From Maritimibacter sp. (GTDB taxonomy: Bacteria > Pseudomonadota > Alphaproteobacteria > Rhodobacterales > Rhodobacteraceae), in assembly GCA_017792445.1 (NCBI GenBank), contig CP051232.1:2888001-2952000 (forward strand): a stretch of DNA of 64,000 bases, read 5' to 3'. Shown here one piece after another: positions 17,197 to 39,812 of this stretch. Under the pieces are notes generated by a model. That model did not search any database. It was not told where the DNA came from and saw nothing but the letters and a program-made list of their open reading frames with translations. Positions within the stretch are counted from its first letter, which is position 1; each line of letters begins with the position of its first letter. Position numbers and translations under genes: made by a program.

Positions 17197-17805
17197 TCAG
17201 CCGTAGGCCTCGATGAACGCGTCGATCGACAGCCTGCGGATGTCGGGCAGCGCCGCGCGCAGCGCCTCGTGGCTCCAGTCCCACCACGCGATCCGCTGCA
17301 ACGCCTCGGCCTGCGCCTCGGTGAAGCGGCGCTTGATGTGACGGGCGGGCACGCCGCCGACGATCTCGTAAGGCGCCACGTTCTTCGACACCACCGCGCC
17401 CGCGCCGACCACCGCACCGTCGCCGATGCTGACACCGGGCAGCACCGTGACGCCGTGGCCGATCCAGACATCGTTCCCGATGGTGACCCAGTGATCCTTG
17501 CGCCACTGGAAGAACGCCGCGTCGTCCTCGCCCAGATCGAACATCTCGGCGCGGTAGGTGAAATGGTGCTGCGCCGCCCGCCATGTCGCGTGGTTGCCGG
17601 GGTTGATCCTTGCGCCCTGCGCGATCGAGCAGAACTTGCCGATGGTCGCCCAGACCGCCGAACTGTCGCTGACGATGTAGGAATAATCCCCGAAGGTGAC
17701 CTCGCGCAGCGACACGCGGGCCTTGATGTCGGTCCAGCGGCCAAGCTCGCAGTCGATGACGGTGGCGGTCTCGTGGATGGTCGGGGCTTCGGAGAGGCGG
17801 GTCAT
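17197..17805 (-). CDS. Phosphonate-cluster hexapeptide-repeat acetyltransferase
   Basis: A 202-residue left-handed beta-helix acyltransferase of the type found in phosphonate operons (phn Thr/hexapeptide family, distinct from the GNAT PhnO). Hexapeptide repeats run from about residue 12 to 165; GNDVWIGHGVTVLPGVSIGDGAVVGAGAVV is the clearest block. The catalytic His candidate is in WIGHG or in the GNHATW stretch. The ATG at 17803-17805 overlaps the phnE stop codon (ATGA), so it is the last gene of phnC-D-E-E. A role in modifying an aminophosphonate is an inference from context. Confidence 0.85.
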   Translation of the reverse strand: MTRLSEAPTIHETATVIDCELGRWTDIKARVSLREVTFGDYSYIVSDSSAVWATIGKFCSIAQGARINPGNHATWRAAQHHFTYRAEMFDLGEDDAAFFQWRKDHWVTIGNDVWIGHGVTVLPGVSIGDGAVVGAGAVVSKNVAPYEIVGGVPARHIKRRFTEAQAEALQRIAWWDWSHEALRAALPDIRRLSIDAFIEAYG

Positions 17806-18659
17806 AGGGGTCCTTCGGTCTTTCCGATGATCCGGGCGCGGATCAGGCCCGAGCAATAGTCGATGACGTAGACCATGGCGATGATCAGGAAGATGATCGA
17901 CCATGCCTCGTTCCAGCGATAGGCGGCGATGCGGTCCGACAGCAGAAAGCCGATGCCGCCCGCGCCGACGATCCCGAGGATGGTGCCGGACCGCACGTTG
18001 GATTCGAAGTTGTACAGCAGCACCGACCAGATCACCGGCATCACCTGCGGAAGGGTTCCGAACCGGATCTGCTGCAGCCGCGATCCGCCCGAGGCCTTCA
18101 CCCCGTCGACCGGCCGGTCCGAGGTGTTCTCGATGGCTTCCGAGAACAGCTTGGCGAAGGTGCCGATCTCGCTGACGGCGATGGCAAGGATGCCGGGCAG
18201 GGGGCCAAGGCCGAAGGCGCGGATGAAGATCAGCGCAAGGATCAGCGTCTCGAAGGCGCGGATCACGTCATAGCCTCGCCGCACGCCCAGCCTTAGAAAC
18301 CCCAGCCGGTTGATGTTCTTCGCGCCGAGGAACGAGACCGGAAACGCGACCACCGCGCCCAGCAGGGTGCCGAGGAAGGCCATCGCGAGGGTCTCGCCCA
18401 GCCCTTCGAGGATCGGCCAGAACTCTTCCCACGTGGTCCAGACATAGGGCGGGAACATGAAGCTCAGCACGTCGCCGAACCGCTGGATGCCGGTCCAGAT
18501 GCGGGCTGGCGAGAAGTCGAAGGCCCACAGGCAATAGGCGAACAGGGCAATGAACACGGTCCATGCGGCGGCGCGGCGCAGGCGCACCGGCAGCGGCGCG
18601 CGGAAGGCGCCGGGGTGGGCGGCGCGCGCGGCGGCGATGCGGTCCTCGGTCAGGCTCAT
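17802..18659 (-). CDS. phnE: Phosphonate ABC transporter permease PhnE (second copy)
   Basis: An inner-membrane permease of 285 residues with about six membrane spans. The EAA loop that docks the ATPase is around SEAIENTSDRPVDGVKASGG. VGAGGIGFLLSDRI near the C terminus is typical of PhnE. It overlaps the upstream phnE and the downstream acetyltransferase gene by ATGA on both sides, so all are tightly coupled. Two PhnE proteins probably form a heterodimeric channel for PhnC and PhnD, as is common for this transporter family. Confidence 0.93.
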   Translation of the reverse strand: MSLTEDRIAAARAAHPGAFRAPLPVRLRRAAAWTVFIALFAYCLWAFDFSPARIWTGIQRFGDVLSFMFPPYVWTTWEEFWPILEGLGETLAMAFLGTLLGAVVAFPVSFLGAKNINRLGFLRLGVRRGYDVIRAFETLILALIFIRAFGLGPLPGILAIAVSEIGTFAKLFSEAIENTSDRPVDGVKASGGSRLQQIRFGTLPQVMPVIWSVLLYNFESNVRSGTILGIVGAGGIGFLLSDRIAAYRWNEAWSIIFLIIAMVYVIDYCSGLIRARIIGKTEGPL

Positions 18660-19591
18660 GTCCGGTCTCCCATGCCGATGATGCGGTGGCGCAGCTTTTC
18701 CGAGGCGTAGTCGATGACCACCACGGTCACGAAAATGATCACGAACAGCGCCGAAAGGTCGGTGTATTCCTGAAACGACATGGCGGTGCGGATCTCCTGG
18801 CCCAGCCCGCCCGCGCCGACATAGCCGATGATCGAGGACGAGCGGACGTTGATCTCGAACCGAAGCAGGGTGTAGCTGATCACGTTCGGCAGCACCTGCG
18901 GCACCGCACCGTAACGGATCTGGTCGAACCAGCCGCCGCCCGAGGCCTTCACGCCCTCCAGGGGCTTCATGTCGATGTTCTCGACCGCTTCCGAGTAAAG
19001 CTTGCCAAGCGCCCCGGTGGCGTGCAGCCCCACGGCCATCACGCCCGCCATCGGCCCGACCGAGAAGCAGAAAACGAAGATCAGCGCCCAGACCAGTTCC
19101 GGCACCGTCCGCGCGATCTCGAGATAGCGGCGGCAGACCCACAGCATCGCCCGGTTGGGCGACAGGTTGCGGGCGGCCGGGAAGGCGAGAAGGAAGCCGC
19201 CGATCACGCCGAAGGTAGTGGCCATGAAGGCGATCAGGATGGTCTCGATCAGCAGGCGCAGCCAGGTGCGCCAGCGCCAGAACCATTCGGCGAAGTCGGC
19301 GCCAAGGCTGTCCCAGCGCAGCGTCGGGAAGGTCTGGACGATGTATTCGCCCAGCCGGGGCAGGCCCGCCGGGATGATCCAGCGCCAATCGCGCGATCCG
19401 TCCGGCAGCGTCACCTGCGTGACGCGGAAGAAATCGCCGAACCATGCAGAGGCGAGGAAAGCGATGAAAAACAGGGTGCTGCCGATGGCCCAGGTTCGCC
19501 GGGCGCGGCGGCGGCGGGCGGCATAGTCGCGCTCGAAGGCGCTGACGGCGTCCCCGGCGGGCACGGCGGCGAAATCTGCGGTCAGGGTCAT
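18656..19591 (-). CDS. phnE: Phosphonate ABC transporter permease PhnE (first copy)
   Basis: Permease of 311 residues. A cytoplasmic N-terminal region is followed by a membrane span near residues 35-52 and further spans in the C-terminal two thirds. The ATPase-docking loop is SEAVENIDMKPLEGVKASGG, and VGAGGLGQEI gives the PhnE signature. Compared with the second copy it has a longer periplasmic loop (residues 55-105). It follows phnD after 85 bases and overlaps the second phnE by ATGA. Confidence 0.93.
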   Translation of the reverse strand: MTLTADFAAVPAGDAVSAFERDYAARRRRARRTWAIGSTLFFIAFLASAWFGDFFRVTQVTLPDGSRDWRWIIPAGLPRLGEYIVQTFPTLRWDSLGADFAEWFWRWRTWLRLLIETILIAFMATTFGVIGGFLLAFPAARNLSPNRAMLWVCRRYLEIARTVPELVWALIFVFCFSVGPMAGVMAVGLHATGALGKLYSEAVENIDMKPLEGVKASGGGWFDQIRYGAVPQVLPNVISYTLLRFEINVRSSSIIGYVGAGGLGQEIRTAMSFQEYTDLSALFVIIFVTVVVIDYASEKLRHRIIGMGDRT

Positions 19592-19676: not shown

Positions 19677-20597
19677 TTACGAGCCGCGGCGCTGGTTCTT
19701 CAGCCACTCGCGCATGTCGACGATCCACTGGTAGCGGTCGTGATCGACGCGGGTGAAGCCCACTTCCGGGTTCTCGTCGTCCGGGTTGAAGGACGAGTAC
19801 AGCGCATAGCCTTCCGGATCGGCGGTCGGGAATTCCTCGATCGCGGCGGTGATCTCTTCGATCATCTCTTCCGGCAGGTTGTTGCGGAAGGTCCAGGGGC
19901 CCGAGGTGATTTCCGGCGATTCCCAGATCTTGCAGACCACGCCTTCCTCGATCATCCCCTTGATTTCCATGCGCTGGTAGACGCCGTTGATATCGTTGTC
20001 CTGGTAGGTCGACGCGGTGTCGAAGGTGCCGTTGACGACGCCCTGCACACCCGCCTCGTGGCTGCCCGAGAACGGAACGGCGGCGAAGAAGTCTTCCGGC
20101 TTGAAGCCTTCGCGTTCCACCATGTTGAAATAGGGAACCGCATAGCCAGAGGTCGAATCCGGGTCGGCAAAGGCATGAACCTTGCCCTTGGCGTCTTCGA
20201 GCGTCTCGATGCCGCTGTCGCAGCGCGCGACGACGATCGAGTAATAGCCGGTCGAGCCATCCTTGTTGATCGAGGTCAGCGTGGGGACGACGCCGCCGTC
20301 GGTGGCGGTGTAGACGGCCGCGTAAGAGGACGAACCGAAGCGGGCGACCTCGATCTGGTCGGCGGCGATGGCCTGAACGACGCCGTCGTAATTGCCGGCG
20401 GTGAAGATCTCGACCTCGACGCCAAGCTTTTCTTCAAGGAAGACGCGCAGCGGTTCGTTGCGCATCAGGCGGTCCTGCTCGTTCTCGCCCGAGAGGATGC
20501 CGAACTTGACGACCTGATAGTCGTCGCGCCAGCCCTCGGCGAACAGGGGACCGGCAGCGGTAAGCGCCACGAGGGCGGCGGTGGTGAACAGTTTCAT
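19677..20597 (-). CDS. phnD: Phosphonate-binding periplasmic protein
   Basis: A 306-residue substrate-binding protein with an N-terminal signal peptide (MKLFTTAALVALTAAGPLFA). The fold begins VVKFGILSGENEQD. The phosphonate-pocket stretches of the family are recognisable as RFGSSSYAAVY and DPDSTSGYAVPYF, the latter close to the DPNSTSG motif of E. coli PhnD. The ATG at 20597 follows GGGAGAGA. It lies between phnC and the two phnE genes. The exact ligand cannot be told from the sequence. Confidence 0.93.
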   Translation of the reverse strand: MKLFTTAALVALTAAGPLFAEGWRDDYQVVKFGILSGENEQDRLMRNEPLRVFLEEKLGVEVEIFTAGNYDGVVQAIAADQIEVARFGSSSYAAVYTATDGGVVPTLTSINKDGSTGYYSIVVARCDSGIETLEDAKGKVHAFADPDSTSGYAVPYFNMVEREGFKPEDFFAAVPFSGSHEAGVQGVVNGTFDTASTYQDNDINGVYQRMEIKGMIEEGVVCKIWESPEITSGPWTFRNNLPEEMIEEITAAIEEFPTADPEGYALYSSFNPDDENPEVGFTRVDHDRYQWIVDMREWLKNQRRGS

Positions 20598-20644: not shown

Positions 20645-21460
20645 TCAGGCGGGGATCTTTTCCGCCTGTGGCCGGATCGAGGTCGAGGTGACGGCCGCGT
20701 CGAACTCGGCCAGCCCCTCGGAGCCGTAGATGTCGCGCACGACGTCGTCGGTCAGCTGCGCCGCAGAGCCGTCGAACATCACCGTGCCCTCGCGCATGGC
20801 GATGATCCGGTCGCAATAGGCTCGGGCGGTGTCGAGTGTGTGGAGGTTGACCAGAACGGTCAGCCCGTCCTCGCGGTTGATGCGGGCCAGCGCATCCATC
20901 ACGCGGGTGGCGTTGCCGGGGTCGAGCGAGGCGATGGGTTCGTCCGCCAGCATGATGCGCGGGTTCTGTACCAGCGCACGGGCGATGGCGACGCGCTGTT
21001 GCTGGCCGCCCGACAGGGTGCCGGCCCGCTGAAGCGCCTTGGGCGCCATGTCCAGCCGGTCCAGCGCCTCGATCGCCATCGCGCGCTCGGCATCCGAGAA
21101 ACGCATGGTCATCGAGGACAGAAAGCCATGGTCGGCCAGCCGGCCCACCAGCACATTGGTCAGGACGTCCAGCCGTTCCACGAGGTTGAACTGCTGGAAG
21201 ATCATCGCGCAATCGCGCCGCCAGTCGCGCAGGGCGCTGCCGCGCAGCTTCGTGACGTCCCGGTCGCCAAAGGCGATCTCGCCGGCGGTGGGCTCGATCA
21301 GGCGGTTGATCAGGCGCAGAAGCGTCGACTTGCCCGCGCCGGAGCGGCCGATGACGCCGACGAACTGGCCGGGCGGAATGGTGAGGGTGACATCGCGCAC
21401 GGCGGTGGTCTCACCGAAGCGGCGGGTCAGGCGGGTGAGGCTGAGGCTTGCGTGTTCCAT
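20645..21460 (-). CDS. phnC: Phosphonate ABC transporter ATPase
   Basis: The ATPase of the phosphonate importer, 271 residues. Walker A is GRSGAGKST (about 38-46), the signature is [15 protein letters not shown], and Walker B with the D-loop is [12 protein letters not shown]. It is the first gene of phnC-D-E-E-acetyltransferase. The short extra C-terminal piece ([21 protein letters not shown]) has no known role. Upstream lies an 11-bp element shared with the phnF upstream region, pointing to common control. Confidence 0.94.
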
Positions 21461-21760: not shown

Positions 21761-22990
21761 ATGGAAAGCTATGTGATCGAGGGCGCGCGGGCGGTGCTGC
21801 CCGGCGGCACCGAGACCGTGTCGCTGCGCATCGAGGGCGACCGGATCGCCGCGCTGGACGGCGCGCGCGGCGGCGCGCCGGTGGTGGACGCGCGCGGACT
21901 GGTGCTGGCCCCGGCGCTGGTCGACGTGCACGGCGACGCCTTCGAGCGTCAACTGATGCCGCGCCCTGGCGTGTTCTTCCCGCTGGACGTCGCAGTGATG
22001 GAGACCGACCGGCAGCTTGCGGGCAACGGCATCGCCACCGCCTATCACGCGCTGACGCTGGGCTGGGAGCCGGGCCTGCGCTCGGTCGCGCGCGGCACCG
22101 AACTGGTGCGGCTTTGGCAGGCGATGGCCGCGCGGCTGACGGTCGAGAACCGGGTGCAACTGCGGTGGGAGACCTTCTGTTTCGAGGCCGAGGACCTGAT
22201 CGCCGAGGCGCTGGCCGGACCGCTGACGCCTTCGGTCGCGTTCAACGACCACACGACGATGGCGATGCTGTCGCCCACCGTGCGGCTTCAGGACCGCCCC
22301 TTCGACCACGCGCCGGACTTCCCGGTGGTCGACACTTCGGCGCCGGAGTTCCTGCGCAAGATGTCGGCCCGCGCCGCACGGTCGGATATCCCGGCAGAGG
22401 ATTACGTGGCGCTGCTGCGCGAGATCTGGGACCGACGGGCGCAGGTGCCCGACGCCATCGCTCGCGTCGGCGCGGCGGCGGGCAAGGTGGGCGCGGCGAT
22501 GTTCAGCCACGACGACACGCAGGCCGAGACGCGGGCCTTCTACCGGTCGCACGGCGCGCGGGTGTCCGAGTTCCCGATGAACGACGCGGTCGCAACGGCG
22601 GCGCGCGAGGCGGGCGACCTGATCGTCTTCGGCGCGCCCAACGTGCTGCGCGGCGGCAGCCACCTTGGCTCGCCCGGCGCGGCGGACATGATCGCGCGCG
22701 GGCTCTGCGACGTGCTGGCGTCGGATTACTACTATCCCGCGATGCTGGCGGCGGTGGCGCGGCTGCACGCCGAGCGGCTGAAACCGCTGCACGAATTGTG
22801 GAAACTGGTCTCGGCCAACGCGGCGGCGGCGTCGAACCTGACCGACCGGGGCGAACTTGCCGTGGGCAAGCGGGCCGATCTTGTACTGCTGGACTGGCCC
22901 GAGGGCGCATTCCCGCAGGTGCGGGCCACGATCAGCGGCGGGCGGGTGAGCTATGACACCGGGCTGATGCGGGAAGCGGTGATGGCTTGA
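21761..22990 (+). CDS. PhnM-like metal-dependent hydrolase (second PhnM paralogue)
   Basis: A 409-residue amidohydrolase of the PhnM family, which releases pyrophosphate from ribose 1-methylphosphonate 5-triphosphate. The first metal motif is VDVHGDAFERQ, where E. coli PhnM has HTDN. Later metal stretches are NDHTTM, FSHDDT and LASDYYYPAML, and the C terminus has the usual ELAVGKRADLVLLD. AAAGGAG sits nine bases upstream of the ATG. It is transcribed alone, opposite phnC. A second, different PhnM (at 23920-25125) lies in the main operon. HGD-type PhnM-like proteins may use another substrate, so I do not give the phnM symbol. Confidence 0.85.
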   Translation: MESYVIEGARAVLPGGTETVSLRIEGDRIAALDGARGGAPVVDARGLVLAPALVDVHGDAFERQLMPRPGVFFPLDVAVMETDRQLAGNGIATAYHALTLGWEPGLRSVARGTELVRLWQAMAARLTVENRVQLRWETFCFEAEDLIAEALAGPLTPSVAFNDHTTMAMLSPTVRLQDRPFDHAPDFPVVDTSAPEFLRKMSARAARSDIPAEDYVALLREIWDRRAQVPDAIARVGAAAGKVGAAMFSHDDTQAETRAFYRSHGARVSEFPMNDAVATAAREAGDLIVFGAPNVLRGGSHLGSPGAADMIARGLCDVLASDYYYPAMLAAVARLHAERLKPLHELWKLVSANAAAASNLTDRGELAVGKRADLVLLDWPEGAFPQVRATISGGRVSYDTGLMREAVMA

Positions 22991-23011
22991 GGGGCGCACC
23001 TTCGGTGCGAC

Positions 23012-23070
23012 GGGGGCTCTGCCCCCGCCGCTGCGCGGCTCCCCCGAGGTATTTCGAAAGAGAAGAAGAA
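23012..23070 (-). repeat. Dispersed intergenic hairpin repeat, copy C
   Basis: Reverse-strand copy: GGGGGCTCTGCCCCC, then CGCCGCTGCGCGGCT, CCCCCGAGGTATTTCG and AAAGAGAAGAAGAAG. It fills most of the gap between the convergent phnM-like gene and the TIM-barrel gene. Confidence 0.85.
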
Positions 23071-23083
23071 GGGCAGGGGCCGG

Positions 23084-23902
23084 TTACTGGCCCAGACCTT
23101 CGGCTTCGAGCCATGCCATGCTGGCAGGGATCTCGGCGCGGTTCTTCAGTTCCAGGATCAGACGCGGGTTGGCGTCGAGTTTGCCGAGCGCTTCGAACAC
23201 CGCGTGCCAGTGGATCGAGCCGCGCCCGATCGACCAGTGGCGGTCGGCGTGGGCGTCGGCGTCCTGCAGGTGGACATGCGCCAACAGGTTGCCTGCGGAT
23301 TTGACGTAATAATCCACCGGCGGCGCGTTGCAGATGCCGTGGGCATAGTGGGCGTGACCGGTGTCGATGGAGAGTTTCAGCGCGTCCGAGCCGAAGCTTT
23401 CGACCAGCGCCTTGCGGTCGGCGGGATTGCCGTCTTCGATGTTCTCCAGCACGATCTCGACGCCCGCGCCCTCGGCGCGCTTCACCGCTGGCCCAAGCGT
23501 TTCGTGGGTGGTCTCGAAGATACGCGAGCGGCCATCGTCGTACATATCGAGATTGTAGTGATCCCAGGACGAGAAGGGCGAATGCACCACCATCTGCGTC
23601 GCGCCGAGCGCCTCGCACACGTCGAGACCCTGCATCATGCGCTTTGCGACGATGGCGCGGATGTCGATGTCGAAACTGGCGAAGTCGAGGCCCCAGAAGG
23701 GTCCATGGATGCCAAGACGGCCGTTCCAGCCGTCGAGCTGCTTCTTCGCCCCGGCGACCGGGTCTTTCCAGCTTTCGGCATTCAGCATCTCGGCGGACCA
23801 GAAGCTTTGCAGTTCGAGGTCGCGGTCTTTCTCGAACAGCCAGTCGCGGTAGGCGGGCAGGTCGCCCACGCCAAGGGCCGCGCCGATCACGGGAAGGGTC
23901 AT
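23084..23902 (-). CDS. TIM-barrel sugar-isomerase-like protein in the phn operon
   Basis: A 272-residue protein of the xylose-isomerase-like / AP-endonuclease-2 TIM-barrel superfamily. Likely divalent-metal ligands are spread over the barrel as expected: MVVHSPFS, IVLENIEDG, LSIDTGHAHY, HVHLQDADA, SIHWHAVFE and LILELKNR. It is the last gene of the phnF-M operon, 17 bases after phnM, where canonical operons carry phnN or phnP. An isomerase or epimerase acting on a ribose-phosphate intermediate of the pathway is a reasonable guess only; I do not recognise a characterised orthologue. Confidence 0.7.
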   Translation of the reverse strand: MTLPVIGAALGVGDLPAYRDWLFEKDRDLELQSFWSAEMLNAESWKDPVAGAKKQLDGWNGRLGIHGPFWGLDFASFDIDIRAIVAKRMMQGLDVCEALGATQMVVHSPFSSWDHYNLDMYDDGRSRIFETTHETLGPAVKRAEGAGVEIVLENIEDGNPADRKALVESFGSDALKLSIDTGHAHYAHGICNAPPVDYYVKSAGNLLAHVHLQDADAHADRHWSIGRGSIHWHAVFEALGKLDANPRLILELKNRAEIPASMAWLEAEGLGQ

Positions 23903-23919: not shown

Positions 23920-25125
23920 TCAGGCGGCGGCACGCAGGGTAAGCGAGCCGTCGGAGAAGATCTTTCGCCCGCCCCGCAGGGTCGCCCGGACATGGCCCAC
24001 GCCCTCGTCGTCGGCGATGACGAGGTCGGCGCGCTTGCCCGGGACGATCTCGCCCCGGTCGGCAAGCCCCAGCGCGCGGGCCGGGTTCAGCGTGGCGAGC
24101 CGCGCCGCGCCGGCGAGGCCGTGGGGATCGGTCCGGCCGAGGATCAGCACGGCAGGCAGGATGGCCGAAGGGTGGTAGTCGGCGGCGAGAATGTCCAGCA
24201 GTCCCGCAGCGTGACAGGCGCGGGCCGAAAGGTTGCCGGAATAGCTTTCGCCCCGAAGTGCGTTCGGCGCGCCCATCGCGGTCAGCAACCCGCGCGCGCG
24301 GGCGGCGCGGGCGGCGTCCTCGGTCACCGGGAATTCCGAGATCGCGGCGCCCAGCGACTGCATCAGCGCGACTTTCTCGGGCGTGTCGTCGTCGTGGCTG
24401 GCCAGCGCGATGCCGTGCAGCGCACAGGTGGCCGAGATCGCCGCCAGCGTCGCGGCCACATCGCCCGCCGCCTGCTGTTTCTCGTCGATGCGGGCCTGAA
24501 CGGCGGCCATCGCCTCTGCCTCGGTGACACCTTTCTCGACCTGCGTGCGGCGGGTCAGGCGTTCGAGGTCGCGGTACTGGCCCTGTCCCGGCGTGTGGTC
24601 GGTCAGGGACACGAGATCGACGGTGCCGTCGGCGATCAGTTCCTCGACCACGGCCAGCGCGTTGGGATAGTTGATCTCGAACCGGGCGTGGACGCGGTGG
24701 TCGACCTTCAGGATCGACCGCATGGATTTCAGCGCGCGCAGCATTTCTTTCGAGTGTTCGTAGCTGCGCAGGTGGCCATAGGCGGACTTCGGGTTGAAGG
24801 ACACGGCGGCGTAGCCGGTGGTGACGCCCGCCGTCTTCAGCCTGCGGTCGAGGTCGCGCAGGCCCAGCTCCATCGGCATTTTCACGTTCGGGCGGGGTTC
24901 CACCTCGCGCTCGATCATGTCGCCGTGCATGTCGATGAAGCCGGGCATCAGCAGCAGCCCGCCGCCGTCGATCCCGCCGTTGATCCCGCCGTTGATCCCG
25001 CTGTCCAGCTCGGCGCCGGCGACCGGGGTGTCGCGGATCTCGGCGATGCGGTCGCCCTCGATCCGCAGCGCGCCACGGTCCAGCACGGCCTCGGGCAGAA
25101 CGATGCGGAAGTTACTCAGCCACAT
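23920..25125 (-). CDS. phnM: PhnM, alpha-D-ribose 1-methylphosphonate 5-triphosphate diphosphatase
   Basis: An amidohydrolase of 401 residues encoded in the C-P lyase operon. Metal-site stretches are FIDMHGDMIERE (HGD in place of the E. coli HTDN), SLTDHTPGQ, ASHDDDT and ILAADYHPSA, and the end has the family motif EIVPGKRADLVIADD. A short insertion near residue 42 contains the peptide INGGINGGIDGG, encoded by a 12-bp tandem repeat. It overlaps phnL by 14 bases, so the two are coupled. Confidence 0.88.
   Translation of the reverse strand: MWLSNFRIVLPEAVLDRGALRIEGDRIAEIRDTPVAGAELDSGINGGINGGIDGGGLLLMPGFIDMHGDMIEREVEPRPNVKMPMELGLRDLDRRLKTAGVTTGYAAVSFNPKSAYGHLRSYEHSKEMLRALKSMRSILKVDHRVHARFEINYPNALAVVEELIADGTVDLVSLTDHTPGQGQYRDLERLTRRTQVEKGVTEAEAMAAVQARIDEKQQAAGDVAATLAAISATCALHGIALASHDDDTPEKVALMQSLGAAISEFPVTEDAARAARARGLLTAMGAPNALRGESYSGNLSARACHAAGLLDILAADYHPSAILPAVLILGRTDPHGLAGAARLATLNPARALGLADRGEIVPGKRADLVIADDEGVGHVRATLRGGRKIFSDGSLTLRAAA
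24961..25002. repeat. 12-bp in-frame tandem repeat inside phnM
   Basis: About three and a half copies of GATCCCGCCGTT on the plus strand, read on the minus strand as Ile-Asn-Gly-Gly units in PhnM. Copy-number change would keep the frame. It lies in a loop before the first metal-binding motif. Confidence 0.85.
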
Positions 25126-25816
25126 CGGCCATCTCCTTTGTCTTCAACGGAATTTCGCGGTCGATCAGGGCGGCCACGTCGCCGGGGTGGTGGAACACTC
25201 CGATCATCGCGACGCCCTCGTCCTTCAGTTCCGCCAGCCGGCGGACCAGCGCCGCGCGGGCGCCCGCGTCAAGCGAGGCGGTGGGTTCGTCCAGCAGCAA
25301 CAGACGCCGGGGCCGGATCAGCGCGCGGGCAAGATTCACCTTCTGTTGCTCGCCGCCCGAGAAGGTCGTCGGATAGGCGCGCCACAGGTCGGGCTTCACG
25401 CCGAAGGTCGCCAGCCAGTGCCGGGCGGCGTCCAGCGCCGTCTCGCGCGGGGTGCCGGCAAGGCGCAGAGGCTCGGCCACGATTTCCTCGGCGGCGACGC
25501 GGGGGCGTGCGGTCAGGAACTGGGTGACGAAGCCGATCTCGGCCCGGCGCAGGTGGGCGATATCGACGTCGGCGGCGGTCGCAAGGTCGATGGGCCCCTG
25601 TTCGCTTTGGTAGATCAGCCGCCCGCCGGTGGGCAGGTAGCTACGGTACAGCGTTCGCAGCAGCGTCGACTTGCCCGCGCCGTTCGGCCCCGACAGCAGC
25701 AGGAACTCGCCCGCCGACAGGGTGAAGGACAGCCGCTCGAACGCGGGTAGCGCCTGTCCGAGGTGGTGCATCCGGAAGGTCTTGGACAGGTCGTCCACGG
25801 TGAGAAGAGGGGTCAT
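25112..25816 (-). CDS. phnL: C-P lyase ABC-type subunit PhnL
   Basis: An ABC ATPase-like protein of 234 residues without a membrane partner; PhnL is essential for C-P lyase function in E. coli and works with PhnK. Walker A is GPNGAGKST, the signature FSGGEQQKVNLARAL and Walker B LLLLDEPTASLD. An insertion between strands (LIYQSEQGPIDLATAADVD) is typical of PhnL. The ATG at 25816 matches the family start; the longer reading is a different gene's region. It lies 22 bases after phnK. Confidence 0.93.
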   Translation of the reverse strand: MTPLLTVDDLSKTFRMHHLGQALPAFERLSFTLSAGEFLLLSGPNGAGKSTLLRTLYRSYLPTGGRLIYQSEQGPIDLATAADVDIAHLRRAEIGFVTQFLTARPRVAAEEIVAEPLRLAGTPRETALDAARHWLATFGVKPDLWRAYPTTFSGGEQQKVNLARALIRPRRLLLLDEPTASLDAGARAALVRRLAELKDEGVAMIGVFHHPGDVAALIDREIPLKTKEMADVAE

Positions 25817-25838: not shown

Positions 25839-26639
25839 TCACAGTTTCGCGTGGACGAGTTGCTGGGTGTAGGCGTGCTGCGGATCCTGAAAGACCTGAT
25901 CGGCAAGACCCTCTTCGACCACCTTGCCTTGGCGCATCACCATGACGCGGTCGGCCATGGTGCGGATCACGCCAAGGTCGTGGCTGACCAGTACCATCGT
26001 CATGCGACGGTCCTGTTGCAGCCGTTTCAACGTGTCGAGCACCAGCGCCTGCACGCTGACGTCGAGCCCGGTGGTCGGCTCGTCCAGCAACAGCAGCGCC
26101 GGTTCCAGCGCGATGGCCTTGGCCAGTTGCACCCGTTGCTGCATGCCGCCCGACAGTTCCACCGGCGGGGCGTCCATCCGGTCCAGCGGGAATTCGGACG
26201 CATCCAGCGCGCCGCGCGCCTTTTCCCGCAGCACGTGGAACCGGCGTTCGCCCGCGATCAGCAGGCGCTCGGCGACGTTGCCCGAGGACGAGTTCTTCAT
26301 CAGCAGGCCCTGATGCGGGTTCTGGTAGACGATGCCGATGCGGCGGGCGCAGAGCATCCGGCGTTCGAACCTGTCGAGGTCGAACAGGTTCGGCGGAAGG
26401 TCCGGCAGGTCCAGCGCATAGGTGCCCGCGTCGGGGCTTTCCTGCAGGTTCATCATCCGCAGCAGGGTGGACTTGCCCGAACCGCTTTCGCCGACGATGC
26501 CCAGCACCTCGCCGGGGTAGACATGGGCCGACACGTCGTCCAGCGCCACCACCGGGCCATAGCGTTTCGACAGGCTGTCAAACCGCATCAGCGGTTCTGC
26601 CGTCACCAGCTGCGGCATCGCTTTCGCCAAAGCGGTCAT
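25839..26639 (-). CDS. phnK: C-P lyase ABC-type subunit PhnK
   Basis: An ABC ATPase of 266 residues that in E. coli docks on the PhnJ subunits of the C-P lyase core complex. Walker A is GESGSGKST, the signature LSGGMQQRVQLAKAI, and Walker B LLLLDEPTTGLDV. Sequence is close to canonical PhnK, including YQNPHQGLLM. The ATG overlaps the phnJ stop codon (ATGA). Preservation of an intact PhnK next to an unusual PhnJ argues that the complex still assembles. Confidence 0.94.
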   Translation of the reverse strand: MTALAKAMPQLVTAEPLMRFDSLSKRYGPVVALDDVSAHVYPGEVLGIVGESGSGKSTLLRMMNLQESPDAGTYALDLPDLPPNLFDLDRFERRMLCARRIGIVYQNPHQGLLMKNSSSGNVAERLLIAGERRFHVLREKARGALDASEFPLDRMDAPPVELSGGMQQRVQLAKAIALEPALLLLDEPTTGLDVSVQALVLDTLKRLQQDRRMTMVLVSHDLGVIRTMADRVMVMRQGKVVEEGLADQVFQDPQHAYTQQLVHAKL

Positions 26640-27550
26640 CGCTGCATCTCTCCGTCCACGTACCACGTCGCGCCGATTTCCGGGTCTTCGCCCTCGGCGC
26701 GGCGGATCGCCTTCACGCCAAGTTCGCTGTCCGACACCTCGTGCGCCGAGCCGCCGCCGTCCTGCGGGATCTCGTTCATGAAATAGCCCGTCAGGCCCGA
26801 GCGGGCGCAGGTGAGCCCCGCGTGATCCTCGACCCGATAGGGCACGTCGTCGAAGACCAGCGGCTCGACCCGCGTATGGGGCGGCACCGCGAAGATGCGT
26901 TTCTCGCGCCCCGCCGACAGGATCGTCAGGTGGTCGGCCATGTGCAGCTTTGGCACGTCCCAGCGCGGGATGGGCGAGGGCGACATGACGTGCCGCCCAT
27001 TGACCATCGACGGATAGGACGCGCCCTGCATCACCCGGCCCGACCGGACGATCTGCTCGTACAGCGTCAGCCACAGCCGGCCATAGTCGGCATCGGCGTG
27101 CATCTGGCGCGCGGCGGACATGTTCGGTTCGACCGGGCGCAGGGGTTCGGGGTTCGGGACCTGCAGGATCAGGATCTGGTCGGCGCGCAGTTTCTCTTCC
27201 GGGATGCGGTGGCGCGACTGGATCAGCGAGGCGGCCAGCGTGTCGTTGGTGGCCCCGGCGCCCGACACGCGGGTCAGGAAGCGGCGGATCGACGCGGCGT
27301 TGACGCTGTCGTCGGCGCCCTGGTCGATCACCTTCACCACCGACTTCGGGTTGACCAGCGTCAGCGTGACCTGAAGCCCGCCGGTCCCCCAGCCGCGCGC
27401 GATGGGCACCTCGCGGCTGGCATAGGGCATCTGGCAGCCGGGCACGGCCACCGCCTTGATCATCTTGCGGCGCATCTCGCGCTTCGCCGAGGCGTCGAGG
27501 AAGCCATAAGAGAAGGCGCGCCACGGGCGGGTAAGGCTGGCGAGGGTCAT
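26636..27550 (-). CDS. phnJ: Divergent PhnJ lacking most radical-SAM cysteines
   Basis: Homologous over its whole length (304 residues) to PhnJ, the radical SAM subunit that cleaves the C-P bond. Conserved blocks include AVPGCQMPY, RGWGTGG, VIDQGADD, QSRHRIPE and AGREKRIFAVPP. The E. coli protein has Cys241, Cys244, Cys266 and Cys272 in CAIC ... CSDTDYC. Here the matching segments read CARS (C248 kept, Ser at the second Cys) and EVSDSELG (no Cys). Gly38 matches glycyl residue Gly32. Only two Cys remain in the protein, C39 and C248. The reading is continuous with normal codon use, so it is not a frameshift. phnI and phnK overlap it by ATGA. The usual chemistry looks impossible without replacement ligands. 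Confidence 0.9.
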   Translation of the reverse strand: MTLASLTRPWRAFSYGFLDASAKREMRRKMIKAVAVPGCQMPYASREVPIARGWGTGGLQVTLTLVNPKSVVKVIDQGADDSVNAASIRRFLTRVSGAGATNDTLAASLIQSRHRIPEEKLRADQILILQVPNPEPLRPVEPNMSAARQMHADADYGRLWLTLYEQIVRSGRVMQGASYPSMVNGRHVMSPSPIPRWDVPKLHMADHLTILSAGREKRIFAVPPHTRVEPLVFDDVPYRVEDHAGLTCARSGLTGYFMNEIPQDGGGSAHEVSDSELGVKAIRRAEGEDPEIGATWYVDGEMQR

Positions 27551-28617
27551 GCGGTTTCCTCGGTCTTCGCAGGCGTGGGGGCTTCCTTTTTCGCCTGCGC
27601 GCCGCGCAATGCGTCGAGCGAGGACTGGAAGGTCACGTAATGCGGCAGCTTGAAGTGGATGCAGAAGCCCGAGCTTTCGACCGGCTCGGTGTGGTACAGG
27701 AAGAACTCCTCGTTCACCGGGGAATTCTTCGGCGCGCCGGGGCTGTTGAGATCCAGCGTGGCGGCAGAGATCACCTTGACCTCGTTCCAGCCCAGCGTCG
27801 CCGCGAAGCCAAGCCGCAGCCTGTCCTTGCCCTTGGTGGTCACCACCTCGGCCTGACTGGTCTTCACCCGGCCCGCCGAGAAGGTGACGCCCCTTGGATG
27901 CCGCACGCGGACCTCGACCTCGGACAGGCGCAGTTCGTTCACCGTGGGGTGGGCGGTGCCATAGCCCCGCATTGCCGAGTATCCCAGCGCCAGCGTGCCG
28001 CCGGTGTCGGCGCGGGCAAGGCTTTGCAGCGTGTGCGCGCGTTTCGCCGGGAATAGCAGCGGTTCGCGGGTCAGGTCGGGGATCGCGTCGCGGTCCACCG
28101 GATCGGCCATCGGCGGCTCGACCAGCCCCTGCGCCACCTGCCACGCGGCCAGCGAGGGGTGCCGCGCGGGCGCGGGCGTGGCGGCGGGGGTGACGGCGGC
28201 AGGCTTGTAGGCCTCGCCCTCCAGAACCTGCGTCGCCAGCAGGCGATGCGCATAGTCCAGCGTCGGCCCGAGGATCTGGCCGCCGGGGATGTCCTTGAAC
28301 GCGGCCGAGATGCGGCGGTGGGTGAAGCCCTCGTCCGCCGCCACCGGCTCGGCCACCTGAAGGCGCGGCTGCGTGGTGCGCCATGCGCGCAGCAGCAGCA
28401 ACGCCTCGTACAGGTCGCCACCGGATTGCGCCAGCGCCAGCGCGGCAAGGTCGGGGGCGTAAAGCGACGCCTCGCCCATCACCCGGTCGACAAGGGCGGG
28501 CAAGGCGGCCCCGATCTCTTTCACGCGGGACGGGGTGATGCGGCCCGTCTGGGCGCGGTACATCCGTTCCGCCTGCTCGATGGCGCGTTCGCCGCCTCGG
28601 GTGGCTACATAGGCCAT
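27547..28617 (-). CDS. phnI: C-P lyase subunit PhnI
   Basis: A 356-residue subunit; with PhnG, PhnH and PhnL it makes alpha-D-ribose 1-methylphosphonate 5-triphosphate from ATP and the phosphonate, and alone it is a nucleosidase. Conserved blocks seen are ISAAFKDIPGGQILGPTLDY, ALGYSAMRGYGTAHP and FCIHFKLPHYVTFQ. The last keeps H321 and H326, which correspond to the zinc-binding His pair of E. coli PhnI. A Pro/Ala/Thr-rich insert lies near residues 138-152. It starts three bases after phnH and overlaps phnJ by ATGA. Confidence 0.94.
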   Translation of the reverse strand: MAYVATRGGERAIEQAERMYRAQTGRITPSRVKEIGAALPALVDRVMGEASLYAPDLAALALAQSGGDLYEALLLLRAWRTTQPRLQVAEPVAADEGFTHRRISAAFKDIPGGQILGPTLDYAHRLLATQVLEGEAYKPAAVTPAATPAPARHPSLAAWQVAQGLVEPPMADPVDRDAIPDLTREPLLFPAKRAHTLQSLARADTGGTLALGYSAMRGYGTAHPTVNELRLSEVEVRVRHPRGVTFSAGRVKTSQAEVVTTKGKDRLRLGFAATLGWNEVKVISAATLDLNSPGAPKNSPVNEEFFLYHTEPVESSGFCIHFKLPHYVTFQSSLDALRGAQAKKEAPTPAKTEETA

Positions 28618-28620
28618 GGC

Positions 28621-29181
28621 TCAGACCTCCGTCACGGTGGTGGACCGGGGCAGCGCCACCAGCGCGGCGCCGTCGTGGAACAACATCTCGATGCCTTGCG
28701 GGTAACGGTTCAGCCGGGCGCGGACGCGCCAGATATCGGCATGCAGCCCGCCAAGGCACAGCCGCGCGGCGCCCGCGATGCCGGGACCGGCCAGGTCCAG
28801 CGCCGGGCCCTGGCTGATACGGGCGGGGGCGACGACGGTCGCGCCCTGATCGGGGTACAGCCGGCTGCCGGTCCGGACCCGCAACAGGCGGTCCATCGCC
28901 TCGGCGCTGGCGAGCGACAGGAACAGATGGTCCGCCAGTTCGGGCGCGACCATGGCCGCGCCGGTCATCGCCAGCACCTCGGCCAGATGCCGGTCATCGG
29001 TCCAGACGCGGCACTCTCGGTCCACCAAGGCCTGCGCGACCGGGCAGGCGCCCGCGCCCGGCAGGCCGTGTACGGTGCCGGGGCGGGACAGGGCCTGCAA
29101 CACCGCATGAAAGGTCGCATTGTCGCGCGCCTCGGCGGCGTCGGGTTCGGGAAGCTGCGGATCGGCGGTCAGGGTCGGCAT
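28621..29181 (-). CDS. phnH: C-P lyase subunit PhnH
   Basis: A 186-residue core subunit of the C-P lyase complex, PLP-transferase-like in fold but without PLP function. Recognisable family stretches are FHAVLQALSRPGTVHGLP near residues 24-41 and YPQGIEMLFHDGAALVALPRST at the C terminus. It follows phnG with its ATG directly adjoining the TGA stop, and phnI begins three bases later. Confidence 0.92.
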   Translation of the reverse strand: MPTLTADPQLPEPDAAEARDNATFHAVLQALSRPGTVHGLPGAGACPVAQALVDRECRVWTDDRHLAEVLAMTGAAMVAPELADHLFLSLASAEAMDRLLRVRTGSRLYPDQGATVVAPARISQGPALDLAGPGIAGAARLCLGGLHADIWRVRARLNRYPQGIEMLFHDGAALVALPRSTTVTEV

Positions 29182-29619
29182 TCAGAACGTCTCCATATCG
29201 ACACGGGTCGCTTCGATCCGGCGCAGGGTCTCGTGATCCTCGGCCTGTTGCGCCGCGCGCTGGGCGTCGGCGAAGGCGCGGATGCGGGCGGCTTCGACAC
29301 CGGCCTGCAACCCCGCGTCCAGCACCGCCATCGCCATCGCGCGTTCCAGATCGCGGCCGGTCACCATGCCGTAGCCCTCGACGCCGTGCTCGGGCAGGCG
29401 CACATGCGCCTCGGCCACCAGCACCTCGCCCAGATGGAACTCGGTGCCCTGCACCGGGTCGCGCATCGGCAACATCACCAGACCGGTGCGGCTGCGGATC
29501 ACCTCGACCTCGCCCAGCTGCGGCAGCACCGCCTCGGCCTCGGCGCGGATCGCCTCTGCCCCGGCGCGGGCGAGCACCGACAGCAGCGCGTCGTCGGGGT
29601 CTGTCGTGCGGTCAAACAT
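29182..29619 (-). CDS. phnG: C-P lyase subunit PhnG
   Basis: A 145-residue core subunit of the C-P lyase complex. The family pattern is present: LSVLARAG at the N terminus, a central VIRSRTGLVMLPMRD, GEVLVAEAHVRL, GYGMVTGRDLERAMAMAVLDA, and the ending IEATRVDMETF. The ATG at 29619 lies inside the last codons of phnF (8-base overlap). A longer reading to 29694 would overlap phnF far more and lacks family support. Confidence 0.92.
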   Translation of the reverse strand: MFDRTTDPDDALLSVLARAGAEAIRAEAEAVLPQLGEVEVIRSRTGLVMLPMRDPVQGTEFHLGEVLVAEAHVRLPEHGVEGYGMVTGRDLERAMAMAVLDAGLQAGVEAARIRAFADAQRAAQQAEDHETLRRIEATRVDMETF

Positions 29620-30355
29620 GGCGCGTTCTCCCTGTGGGTTCTGCATGATCGAGCGAGAACCGCACCCGCCCGGCGGACCAGATCGATTCCGCATGGCCGA
29701 TGGGGAAACCCTCGGGGTCGGCGTCGATCTTCGAGATCACGACCACCGGCTGATCGGCGGGCTGTTCCAGCATCCGCGCCTCCCATTTCTGCGGCAGGCG
29801 CGAATGCAGCGCGGTTTCCTTCCGGGCGTAGTCCGTGACCCCGTGCGCGGCATAAATGTCGGTCACCGACTCGCGGCTCAGGCGGCGGCGGGCAAGGTCG
29901 GGGAAGCGGTCATAGGGATGAAAGCTGCAGGTCAGCAGGATCGGCCGCCCGTCGGCGCGGCCCCGGGTGATCACCCGCGTCACGTCCGCGCCCTCGGCCA
30001 GCCCAAGCACGCCCGCGATCTCGCAATCGGCAGGCACCACCTCGGCCGAGATCGTGTCGCCGCCCGGCTCGACCCCCTGCCGCAGCAGGTTCTCGCGGAA
30101 GCGGGTGCGGCTGCCGATGCGATAGGTGATCCGCGCGGGTTCACGTACGAAGGTGCCGCGGCCCTGCTCGACGCTCAGCACGCCCTCGGCGGCCAGCGCC
30201 GCCACCGCGCGGCGCAACGAGTGGCGCCCGACACCGATCTCGCGCTGCATGTCCGATTCCGGCGGCAGCTGGTCGCCCTCCGCCAGTTCGTTGCTGGCGA
30301 TCGCCGAACGGATCCATTCCCGCGCACGTTCCCAGTTGCTCGTGTCCACCGTCAT
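29612..30355 (-). CDS. phnF: GntR/HutC-family regulator PhnF
   Basis: A regulator of 247 residues with an N-terminal GntR winged helix (about 5-70, LPPESDMQREIGVGRHSLRRAVAAL) and a C-terminal UTRA effector domain. It heads the C-P lyase operon and probably represses it, as PhnF does elsewhere. Two starts are possible: ATG at 30373 or 30355. I prefer 30355 because the upstream one lies inside the CATCCGAATGA element, which would then be an operator in the leader. The stop codon lies inside phnG. Confidence 0.88.
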   Translation of the reverse strand: MTVDTSNWERAREWIRSAIASNELAEGDQLPPESDMQREIGVGRHSLRRAVAALAAEGVLSVEQGRGTFVREPARITYRIGSRTRFRENLLRQGVEPGGDTISAEVVPADCEIAGVLGLAEGADVTRVITRGRADGRPILLTCSFHPYDRFPDLARRRLSRESVTDIYAAHGVTDYARKETALHSRLPQKWEARMLEQPADQPVVVISKIDADPEGFPIGHAESIWSAGRVRFSLDHAEPTGRTRHV

Positions 30356-30370
30356 CGCCCCAGCTCGAAA

Positions 30371-30381
30371 CATCCGAATGA
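30371..30381 (-). promoter_or_regulatory. Candidate PhnF operator upstream of phnF
   Basis: CATCCGAATGA, 15 bases upstream of the preferred phnF start and identical to the site at 21499-21509. CATCCGAATG is a near-palindrome, as expected for a dimeric GntR-family regulator. Binding is inferred. Confidence 0.45.
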
Positions 30382-30412: not shown

Positions 30413-30430
30413 ATGACAGGCGCATGACAG
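30413..30430 (-). promoter_or_regulatory. Perfect Pho box (PhoB site) for the phn operon
   Basis: On the minus strand it reads CTGTCAT, GCGC, CTGTCAT: two exact heptamers with the required four-base spacing. It lies 57 bases upstream of the preferred phnF start. This predicts activation of phnF-G-H-I-J-K-L-M and the TIM-barrel gene by PhoB when phosphate is scarce. Confidence 0.85.
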
Positions 30431-37753: not shown

Positions 37754-38170
37754 GGGCGGCTCCGCTTGGATGTCGACGGGCTTTCGCGACAGATATCAGG
37801 CCGTGCGGGGATTGCCAGCGGCGCGCGGTCCGGCAGGCGACCGGCGGTTTCCCGCACTTTGGCCCGCGCCGTGACGCCACGTCCCGAAGCGGCTCGATTC
37901 GCGGCGGAGTTGTTTATGGGTAAATTAAGGGCCTTTCGCGAATGTCATTATTTTCAGGCGTTTGCCTAAGGATTGACCTTTCGTCAGACCTGCCGCTGCG
38001 GCACGGGCGGCCCGCTGCGCAGCTTGCCCATTCTCGCGGATCCGTGAGGTGCGGCGCGGGAGGACGGGTTGCCGGTCATTTGGACTTCGGTAAGATCGGT
38101 CCATCCAAAAACCGTGCGTCGGATCTGGGTAAAATTATGGGCCGCGCACGAAACAGGGGAGACCAATTTC
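37754..38170. promoter_or_regulatory. 417-base control region upstream of oppA
   Basis: Divergent gap between the kinase gene and oppA. AT-rich patches at 37911-37980 (with AGGC-GTTT-GCCT hairpin) probably hold promoters. Near 38080-38110 the leader can fold TTTGGA...TCCAAA. AGGGGAGACC is the oppA ribosome-binding site. I see no convincing small gene. Confidence 0.5.
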
Positions 38171-39799
38171 ATGAGAACCTTCACCCGGGCAACGCTTTCG
38201 GCGCTGCTTTCTACTTCGATTCTTGCCGGCGCCGCGCTGGCGCAGGACACCCACCCGGAAACCGGCGAGCCGCTGGCCGCCGACCAGACCTTTACCTATC
38301 GCGTTCTGGACGAGCACAGCTCGGTCGACCCGCAGGTGGTCGAGGACGTGTCGGGCTCGGAAATCGTGCGCGACCTGTTCGAGGGCCTGATGAACCAGGA
38401 TGAGGACGGTGAACTCGTGCCCGGCGTCGCCACCGGCTACGAAGTGTCGGACGACAAGCTGACCTACACCTTCACCCTGCGCCCCGAGGCCGTGTGGTCG
38501 AACGGTGACCCGGTCACCGCGAACGACTTCGTCTTCGCGTGGCGCCGCGCCGCCGACCCGGCGCTGGCCTCGCCCTACCAGTGGTTCATCGAGCTGATGT
38601 CGCTTGAGAACGCATCCGAGATCGTCGCGGGCGACATGGCCCCCGAAGAACTGGGCGTGACCGCGATCGACGACCACACGCTTGAGGTCAGGCTGACTTC
38701 GCCGCTGCCGTACTTTCCGTTCATGACCACGCACGCGACGACCTTCCCGGCGCCGCAAAGCGTTGTCGAGGAATTCGGCGCCAACTGGACCAAGCCCGAG
38801 AACATCGTGTCGAACGGCGCCTACGTGCTGACCGAGCATCTGCCGAACGAGCGTTCGGTGCGCGAGCGCAACGAGATGTACTGGGACAACGACAACACGA
38901 TCATCGACAAGGTCGTGGCGCTGGTCATCAACGACGAGAACGTCGCGCTGACCCGCTACATGGCGGGCGAGCTTGACCGCACCGAGGTCCCGGCCGGCCA
39001 GTTCCCGCGTCTGTCCGAGGAATACCCGGACGAGGCGATCTCGTTCCCGCGCCTGTGCAACTACTATTACACGTTCAACCTGTCCGACAGCGGTCCCGAA
39101 GCCTTCAAGGACGTGAACGTCCGCAAGGCGCTGGCGCTGGCCGTGGATCGCAAGATCATCGTCGAGAACATCCTCGCCGGCGGCCAGCCGGAAGCCTACA
39201 CCTTCACCCCGGCCGCCGTCGCAGGCTTCGAGCCCCCGGCGACCGAAATGGCCGGCATGTCGCAGGCCGACCGTGACGCGATGGCGCTGGAACTGCTGGC
39301 CGAGGCCGGTTACGGCCCCGACAACCCGCTGAGCTTCGAGATGGTCTACAACACCTCGGAAGCGCACCAGAAGGTCGCCGTGGCGCTAAGCCAGATGTGG
39401 AAGCAGAAGCTGGGCGTCGACGCGCAGCTGGCCAACATGGAATGGAAGGTCTTCCTTGAAGAGCGCGGCAACCAGAACTTCGAACTGGCCCGTGGCGCCT
39501 GGTGCGGCGACTACAACGAGGCGTCCACCTTCCTCGACCTGCTCGACAGCGCGTCGGGCTACAACGACGGCAAATACGCCAACGAGGCGTATGACAAGCT
39601 TCTGGAAGACGCGAAGACGGCTGACGACACGACGCCGCTTTACACCGAAGCCGAACAGATCCTCGCCGCTGAAATGCCGGTGATCCCGATCTACCACTAC
39701 GCCGGTGTCTACATGATGGACAGCGACGTGGGGAACTGGCCGGTGAACAACGTCGAACAGAACTGGTACTCGAAGAACCTGTACAAGATCGCCGAGTAA
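38171..39799 (+). CDS. oppA: Oligopeptide ABC transporter substrate-binding protein
   Basis: A periplasmic peptide-binding protein of 542 residues (SBP family 5). The signal peptide is the first 25 residues (ending GAALAQ). The mature part begins with the family pattern QTFTYRVLDEHSSVDPQ, followed by GLMNQDEDGELVPGVATGYEVS and later DVNVRKALALAVDRK. The ATG has AGGGGAG upstream. It is first of oppA-oppB-oppC-oppDF, and a hairpin-rich spacer after it probably keeps its mRNA level above that of the membrane genes. Confidence 0.93.
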   Translation: MRTFTRATLSALLSTSILAGAALAQDTHPETGEPLAADQTFTYRVLDEHSSVDPQVVEDVSGSEIVRDLFEGLMNQDEDGELVPGVATGYEVSDDKLTYTFTLRPEAVWSNGDPVTANDFVFAWRRAADPALASPYQWFIELMSLENASEIVAGDMAPEELGVTAIDDHTLEVRLTSPLPYFPFMTTHATTFPAPQSVVEEFGANWTKPENIVSNGAYVLTEHLPNERSVRERNEMYWDNDNTIIDKVVALVINDENVALTRYMAGELDRTEVPAGQFPRLSEEYPDEAISFPRLCNYYYTFNLSDSGPEAFKDVNVRKALALAVDRKIIVENILAGGQPEAYTFTPAAVAGFEPPATEMAGMSQADRDAMALELLAEAGYGPDNPLSFEMVYNTSEAHQKVAVALSQMWKQKLGVDAQLANMEWKVFLEERGNQNFELARGAWCGDYNEASTFLDLLDSASGYNDGKYANEAYDKLLEDAKTADDTTPLYTEAEQILAAEMPVIPIYHYAGVYMMDSDVGNWPVNNVEQNWYSKNLYKIAE

Positions 39800-39812
39800 C
39801 CAAGCGATCTTG

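Follow-up and report, generated by a model that had tools for sequence, protein, structure and literature searches.

Can a carbon-phosphorus (C-P) lyase operon be complete, regulated and under selection when its PhnJ subunit has lost most of the cysteines on which the radical chemistry of this enzyme depends? The question is raised by the phn operon in a stretch of 64,000 nucleotides from Maritimibacter sp. (contig CP051232.1, positions 2,888,001 to 2,952,000), referred to in full as the window, in which PhnJ lacks three of the four cysteines that serve the iron-sulfur (Fe-S) cluster and the thiyl radical of the E. coli protein. Arguing from sequence, we propose that the operon represents a distinct, phosphate-starvation-controlled subfamily of C-P lyase, which would have abandoned the radical S-adenosylmethionine (SAM) half of the machine and would break a P-X bond without radicals at the zinc site between PhnI and PhnJ, a reading to which we give an even chance. 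The gene and the codons at the lost positions are the following.

26636..27550, minus strand: phnJ without the equivalents of E. coli Cys244, Cys266 and Cys272, 304 residues
26798-26800, minus strand: codon of PhnJ Ser251
26735-26737, minus strand: codon of PhnJ Val272
26717-26719, minus strand: codon of PhnJ Gly278

Translation of the minus strand from 27550 to 26636 gives 304 residues followed by a stop, with cysteines at positions 39 and 248 only, as the initial annotation had read them. The protein matches E. coli PhnJ (7z15_D, 4xb6_D) at E∼1e-80, in a local alignment that stops at E. coli residue 263; this alignment pairs E. coli Cys241 with Cys248 and Cys244 with Ser251, and a MAFFT alignment places the columns of Cys266 and Cys272 at Val272 and Gly278 (E. 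coli numbering of the cysteines and of Gly32 as given in PMC9947105 and PMC11978286). The earlier hand alignment, with serine in a CARS motif and both cysteines of the second site gone, thus stands, and of the four cysteines that define a radical-SAM C-P lyase (E. coli 241, 244, 266 and 272) the equivalent of the first alone remains. The fold is that of PhnJ, as judged from a PF06007 score of 385.7 bits (cut-off 25) and from an AlphaFold model with a mean predicted local distance difference test (pLDDT) score of 82.9 and template modelling (TM) scores of 0.84/0.92 to 7z19_D. The reading frames are intact and coupled, with 4-nt overlaps at phnI/phnJ and phnJ/phnK, in line with the initial annotation. 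Also conserved are the contacts to the ribose cyclic phosphate (PRcP), namely R113, H114, Q130, G53, G55 and T56, the E. coli contacts being R107, H108, Q124 and loop 47-50 (PMC9947105).

The same pattern is shared by a deep clade. PhnJ proteins 79-100% identical to that of the window occur in 16 genomes (its own included) out of 295 from its family, the other matches listed being at most 54% identical, and a scan of GTDB species genomes, of which the best 80 matches were kept, adds at least 30 clade loci, giving a clade set of 46. At the columns of Ser251, Val272 and Gly278 cysteine is found in none of these 46 and in all of 67 comparison rows (one gene being included three times), which carry cysteine at all four E. 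coli positions; this pattern of loss is beyond chance. The clade has Ser or Thr at the first of these columns, Val, Leu, Ile, Ala, Met or Thr at the second and Gly, Ala, Met, Trp or Ile at the third. Gly38, the equivalent of the Gly32 radical site, is retained as first noted, and is invariant (46/46, window included). The cysteine that follows it is a true feature of the window protein but not of the clade, in which residue 39 is Cys in 33 members, Tyr in 12 and His in one. Cys248 is present in 44 of the 46, and the PhnJ proteins of L059 and L061 contain no cysteine at all. The suggestion that Cys39 and Cys248 might act as new metal ligands therefore fails, because both positions vary within the clade and PhnJ lacks cysteine altogether in two members.

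The clade spans Alphaproteobacteria and Chloroflexota, with identities to the window of 61-84%, and among its GTDB members are Paracoccus, Devosia, Hoeflea, Rhizobium, Mesorhizobium and metagenome-assembled genomes (MAGs) of Anaerolineae. Among 400 Chloroflexota genomes drawn, 37 have a PhnJ match (38 matches in total, with the cysteines of 8 outside the reading); 12 of these are 70-100% identical to the protein of L057, a member of the clade, and all 12 have the variant pattern (one being the L057 genome itself), while the remaining loci read are of the four-cysteine type (18/18). In trees of PhnJ, PhnI and PhnK (53, 52 and 52 rows, with 27 variants each, excluding L115, L120 and L128) a single branch separates the clade from all other rows, with support of 100 for PhnJ and PhnI and 89 for PhnK. 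The clade is recovered again for PhnJ and PhnI when the cysteine columns are removed (79 chosen rows, 33 variants), both sets of trees being of a quick type and carrying long-branch warnings. Furthermore, the clade has a set of PhnJ residues that are invariant or nearly so and that canonical proteins seldom show (D103, E119, S145, D153, W197, H207, S212, N259, P262, E271 and K280; 46 versus 65 canonical rows), and clade-specific invariants occur in PhnI and PhnK as well. The homologue alignment proposed in the initial annotation has hence revealed a clade in which the cysteine pattern and the phn layout go together (46/46). The literature searched, largely outside subscription journals, yielded no description of a cysteine-less PhnJ; nearest to the subject, one article reports the four PhnJ cysteines as verified present in Methylotenera (PMC11978286).

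A second change is found in PhnI, the partner that binds zinc.

27547..28617, minus strand: phnI (PF05861, 352 bits), with zinc ligands His321, His326 and His223 retained and clade-specific Cys319 and Glu311
27661..27663, minus strand: codon TGC of PhnI Cys319, two residues before zinc ligand His321
27655-27657, minus strand: codon of PhnI His321

In E. coli PhnI zinc is bound by His328 and His333, with His219 in the open state (PMC9947105). Their equivalents His321, His326 and His223 are kept in every readable row, so that the zinc histidine pair is indeed retained, as had been stated before. Position 319 (E. coli 326) is cysteine, within the motif GFCIHxKLPH, in 58 of 58 variant loci from 57 genomes (16 from the family, 30 from GTDB and 12 from Chloroflexota, L129 being the L057 genome a second time), and in one of 83 four-cysteine loci (81 readable) plus one tandem locus. 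Residue 311 is Glu in 45/45 readable variants and Asp in 50/50 canonical proteins. The gain of PhnI Cys319 in step with the PhnJ losses is newly observed here; lying beside the zinc ligands, this residue, which the initial annotation had missed, is a candidate altered ligand or nucleophile.

Comparison with the E. coli PhnGHIJ complex with PhnK and PhnL (4XB6, 7Z15-7Z19) thus separates two sets of features. In common are the PhnJ fold, the partner genes, the ATP-binding cassette (ABC) motifs, the zinc-site histidines and the ribose-phosphate contacts; the variant differs in lacking three of the four cysteines that PhnJ uses for the Fe-S cluster and the thiyl radical, in the cysteine two residues before E. 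coli PhnI His328, in the change of Asp to Glu at 311 and in the other clade invariants. In the E. coli complex the Fe-S cluster site lies ∼30 Å from Gly32, which is itself 31 Å from the zinc ion (PMC9947105). A clade which lacks the Fe-S site and has kept and altered the zinc site makes it testable how C-P lyase divides its labour between sites so far apart.

Is the window operon, then, simply a functionless duplicate in decay? The genome does contain a canonical counterpart, at 1.264-1.283 Mb (L003), with phnF, G, H, I, J, K, L, N, a DUF1045 gene (for a 2H-phosphoesterase-type protein) and phnM. The second canonical phnJ that the initial annotation had named as a refuting find therefore exists, at 1.27 Mb; the window gene is however no decaying copy of it, being 45% identical and standing in its own phnGHIJKLM block. 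The L003 PhnJ has the four cysteines (CGLC...C...C), so that a canonical machine and a variant one coexist in this genome. Both share F, G, H, I, J, K, L and M; the canonical operon differs in the PhnJ cysteines, in a Leu at the PhnI Cys position, in having phnN and DUF1045, and in an additional gene that separates phnI from phnJ. By eye this additional gene (L003, 6455-7300) resembles a DMT/EamA permease. Two phn-type operons in one genome are also said to occur in Pseudomonas stutzeri, where, reportedly, White and Metcalf described two C-P lyase operons in 2004.

Beyond the presence of the canonical operon, the evidence runs against decay. The ratio of nonsynonymous to synonymous substitution rates (dN/dS) is 0.03-0.10 in five pairs of near relatives, which indicates purifying selection in the comparison that had been proposed, and over 397 pairs with dS of 0.1-1.2 its median is 0.19 and its maximum 0.42. 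The variant is the sole PhnJ in 10 of the 46 genomes and in 12 of the 12 Chloroflexota genomes that bear it, about 21 genomes in all (G318 being shared by both counts), which comprise one isolate genome (G311), 8 MAGs and 12 of undisclosed source; examples are G074, which is 99% complete, and the isolate of Haematobacter massiliensis (G311, locus L050). The long internal branch in the trees, which sets off one clade over several phyla, the clade-specific invariant residues, the intact operon and its Pho box argue in the same direction, and decay, rejected on the trees, the near-pair dN/dS and the variant-only genomes, is in our view highly improbable. The clade with its shared pattern and layout, the purifying selection and the Pho boxes rather favour changed chemistry, as the initial annotation had suggested.

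Alternatively, the variant could be a helper of the canonical machine, carrying out the joining to ribose and the PhnM step and leaving the cut to the canonical PhnJ, with its own PhnJ as a pseudo-enzyme that holds PhnK. Of the 16 same-family variant genomes 15 contain another PhnJ match that falls outside the clade, and 21/30 GTDB variant genomes contain at least one further match (that of G301 being two fragments), their cysteines having been read in the window genome and in L069 only. In addition, when neighbours are counted in loci that span 15 kb or more (34 of 39 alphaproteobacterial, 4 of 6 other and 42 of 51 canonical loci, with L069 excluded), phnN and DUF1045 are each present in 4/34 variant loci versus 19/42 and 21/42 canonical ones, and hence lie mostly at other loci. 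These observations would suit a helper, but the variant-only genomes, among them G074, H. massiliensis and the 12 Chloroflexota, and the clade-specific invariants of PhnI, PhnJ and PhnK speak for a separate, co-evolved complex, and we consider the helper explanation unlikely, if still worth weighing. A Rhodobacteraceae MAG contig (L069, 1-12785) carries the variant cluster in tandem with a second one, in which a four-cysteine PhnJ (9 cysteines in total) is combined with the PhnI cysteine, and in Rhizobium miluonense (G313, the genome of L052) PhnJ is matched five times at full length and once weakly, by a partial sequence with a stop.

The organisation of the window operon and of the genes around it is given below.

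30413..30430, minus strand: predicted Pho box CTGTCATGCGCCTGTCAT, 14/14 consensus bases, which starts 57 nt ahead of the phnF start codon
30424-30441, minus strand: third, weaker Pho box repeat, overlapping
29612..30373, minus strand: phnF, GntR-type regulator (TIGR02325, 181 bits, cut-off 156.8)
29182..29619, minus strand: phnG (TIGR03293, 96.5 bits, cut-off 89)
28621..29181, minus strand: phnH (TIGR03292, 104.8 bits, cut-off 91.5)
25839..26639, minus strand: phnK, non-transporter ABC ATPase with conserved nucleotide-binding motifs
25112..25816, minus strand: phnL, non-transporter ABC ATPase with conserved nucleotide-binding motifs
23920..25125, minus strand: phnM, ribosyl-phosphonate triphosphate diphosphatase family (NF011988, 497.7 bits, cut-off 369; TIGR02318, 412.7, cut-off 390.55)
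23084..23902, minus strand: xylose-isomerase-like triosephosphate isomerase (TIM) barrel (PF01261)
21761..22990, plus strand: second PhnM-like amidohydrolase (NF011987, 353 bits, cut-off 253)
20645..21460, minus strand: phnC, transporter ATPase (TIGR02315, 322 bits, cut-off 266.1)
19677..20597, minus strand: phnD, PhnD/PtxB-family binding protein
18656..19591, minus strand: phnE permease, then a second PhnE-type stretch (TIGR01097, 258 bits, cut-off 216.7)
17197..17904, minus strand: hexapeptide-repeat transferase of phosphonate operons, in the same cluster as L043:18169-18795 (TIGR03308, 265.6 bits, cut-off 201.65)

The window genes match their families and PhnG, H, I, K and L are retained in an intact block, as first described. 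The G-H-I-J-K-L block is present in 46/46 clade loci as far as the contigs extend, with a doubt on L060, in which no phnL is seen and the contig ends about 1 kb past phnK; phnM follows the block except in L120 and L060, where the contigs end, and in L054, L055 and L069. The nucleotide motifs of PhnK and PhnL and many PhnM residues are retained in the clade. As regards regulation, the predicted Pho box before phnF, perfect against the consensus, would place the window operon in the Pho regulon and agrees with the phosphate control proposed earlier; 0.22 matches with at most two mismatches are expected in the window, and a box that fits 11 or more of the 14 bases in the 150 nt before phnF is found in 20/37 alphaproteobacterial clade loci versus 1.2% of random stretches.

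What reaction could such a complex carry out? The canonical pathway proceeds by ribosylation by PhnI with PhnG, PhnH and PhnL, followed by PhnM, PhnJ, PhnP and PhnN (PMC10574752). For the variant, polar chemistry at the zinc site of PhnI and PhnJ would be the simplest account, with Cys319 as candidate ligand or nucleophile. PhnG, PhnH and PhnI, with PhnK and PhnL as ATP-driven openers, would let a phosphorus compound displace the adenine of ATP to give a ribose-1-(P-X) 5-triphosphate, from which PhnM would then take off pyrophosphate; PhnJ would hold the ribose 5-phosphate end at the zinc site, and polar cleavage of P-X, with either the ribose 2-OH or the invariant Cys319 beside the zinc as the attacking group, would yield ribose 1,2-cyclic phosphate 5-phosphate, which DUF1045 and PhnN could convert onward to phosphoribosyl pyrophosphate (PRPP). 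We infer each chemical step of this scheme, the role of Cys319 and the substrate, which would have a leaving group better than an alkyl carbanion, sugar or polyol phosphate esters or diesters being one candidate; cleavage of unactivated alkylphosphonates by the variant complex is chemically unlikely. In a more specific form, which we regard as possible but doubtful, this would be an oxygen-robust second chemistry, in which a zinc/thiol site of PhnI (C-x-H-x4-H) acts with PhnJ as substrate holder and phosphorus from sugar or polyol esters reaches PRPP via ribosylation and 2-OH transesterification.

Profile searches for PhnN, DUF1045 and PhnP in 20 chosen genomes bear on the ending of this pathway. 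PhnN over its cut-off and DUF1045 are found in all four alphaproteobacterial variant-only genomes (G074, G306, G311 and G316), and phnN lies within the variant locus in three variant-only alphaproteobacteria (L114, L045 and L050) and in one (L053) of the other 30 alphaproteobacterial variant loci of at least 15 kb. PhnP is over its cut-off in none of the 20 genomes. The distribution suggests that the variant pathway may end in the same ribose phosphates, with this ending supplied elsewhere by the canonical operon.

Radicals might also have been retained by other means, with another cofactor or activating protein and with Gly38 and PhnI Cys319 replacing PhnJ Cys272. The invariance of Gly38, the gain of a cysteine at the other active site and the coexistence of both cysteine sets in L020 and in the second L069 cluster would be compatible with this, but no radical-SAM or activase-like gene is seen in the annotated part of the recurrent neighbour clusters, genome-wide partners being unsearched, and we judge such chemistry improbable.

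A further possibility is that the operon still serves phosphonate catabolism, the C-P bond of activated phosphonates (beta-oxo, beta-carboxy or similar) being cleaved ionically and without radicals, and here the neighbouring genes are informative. The window importer is of the PhnCDE type, with a PhnD/PtxB-family binding protein; a phosphonate hexapeptide transferase accompanies 18/34 alphaproteobacterial and 4/4 other variant loci (and also 19/42 canonical ones); and PhnX with an HpnW-type FAD oxidase adjoins the variant operon in L052, L057 and L062, and in 0/42 canonical loci. These features point to phosphonates, but the Rhizobiales loci L046, L052 and L056 have carbohydrate-type importers, and L053 and L054 family-5 importers, with no PhnCDE in the stretch examined, and activated phosphonates already have simple dedicated hydrolases. 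Cleavage of this kind is in our opinion rather unlikely. Other substrate hints are the carbohydrate/glycerol-phosphate-type binding proteins near 8/34 alphaproteobacterial variant loci versus 0/42 canonical ones, the recurrent xylose-isomerase-like TIM barrels, and the SpdA-like phosphodiesterases near 5/34 versus 0/42; family-5 binding proteins are found near 2/34 and 2/42. The substrate hints may be read both ways, for esters and for phosphonates. That the family-1 binding proteins are true UgpB proteins is not supported, as those of L038, L043, L046 and L052 score 59-65 bits (cut-off 411) and that of L055 gives no match at the threshold used; by sequence they are of a generic carbohydrate/glycerol-phosphate type. 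Near the variant operon of Mesorhizobium escarrei (L054:1323-2975), unlike that of the window, lies a predicted AccA-like (agrocinopine-type) binding protein, whose closest solved relative is AccA (4RA1, 196 bits, the next non-AccA relative scoring 120). AccA binds agrocinopine and pyranose-2-phosphate compounds (PMC4526662).

Weighing the proposal of a polar reaction at the zinc site, we find in its favour the PhnJ losses together with the PhnI cysteine, the retained zinc-site, ribose-phosphate and ATPase residues, the synteny and Pho box, the purifying selection, the stand-alone occurrence, and the presence of phnN and DUF1045 in variant-only Alphaproteobacteria. Several points weigh against it. 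Among the six variant-only genomes tested from outside the Alphaproteobacteria PhnN is over its cut-off in none and DUF1045 is found in one (G321, 31.3 bits, cut-off 24.3), so that the PRcP-to-PRPP ending is unsupported there, and three of the 46 loci (L054, L055 and L069) are without phnM beside the block though the contigs continue. Many pairs at dS∼0.5, with 12-18% amino-acid-changing divergence, have dN/dS of 0.2-0.36 (0.31 for the window and L114); in our judgement these are probably distorted by synonymous saturation in GC-rich genes, and they were hence set aside. L020 and the second L069 cluster, one small lineage, combine the PhnI cysteine with a four-cysteine PhnJ and cluster with L074/L076, not within the variant clade: the cysteine thus arose more than once or was exchanged, is weakened as an exclusive marker of the clade, and is not by itself a marker of the loss of radical chemistry. 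Also, the AlphaFold model of PhnI is of low confidence over residues 311-330 (pLDDT 50-64), Cys319 included, and the geometry of Cys319 and zinc in this monomer was dropped as too uncertain. Finally, there is no known reason for spending ATP in this way on a simple phosphate ester.

The distinction matters for ocean surveys in which phnJ serves to mark C-P lyase (PMC8316502, PMC11066067) and for the link of this gene to aerobic methane formation (PMC11978286). The variant PhnJ passes the PF06007 cut-off but, if the polar reading is true, would form no methane; the phnJ counts of such surveys may therefore be inflated.

Elsewhere in the window, at 38069-41828, lie oligopeptide transporter genes of the OppA type, unlinked to the phn cluster; the OppA protein itself (38069-39799), of the family-5 OppA type, was considered and rejected as part of the phn system. 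Next to variant operons a module recurs that consists of the TIM barrel gene (10/34 alphaproteobacterial clade loci versus 0/42 canonical), the second PhnM-like gene (9/34 versus 3/42), a methyltransferase and a second PhnCDE set, and which is present in whole or in part in the window (21761-23902), L117, L119, L122, L123 and L048.

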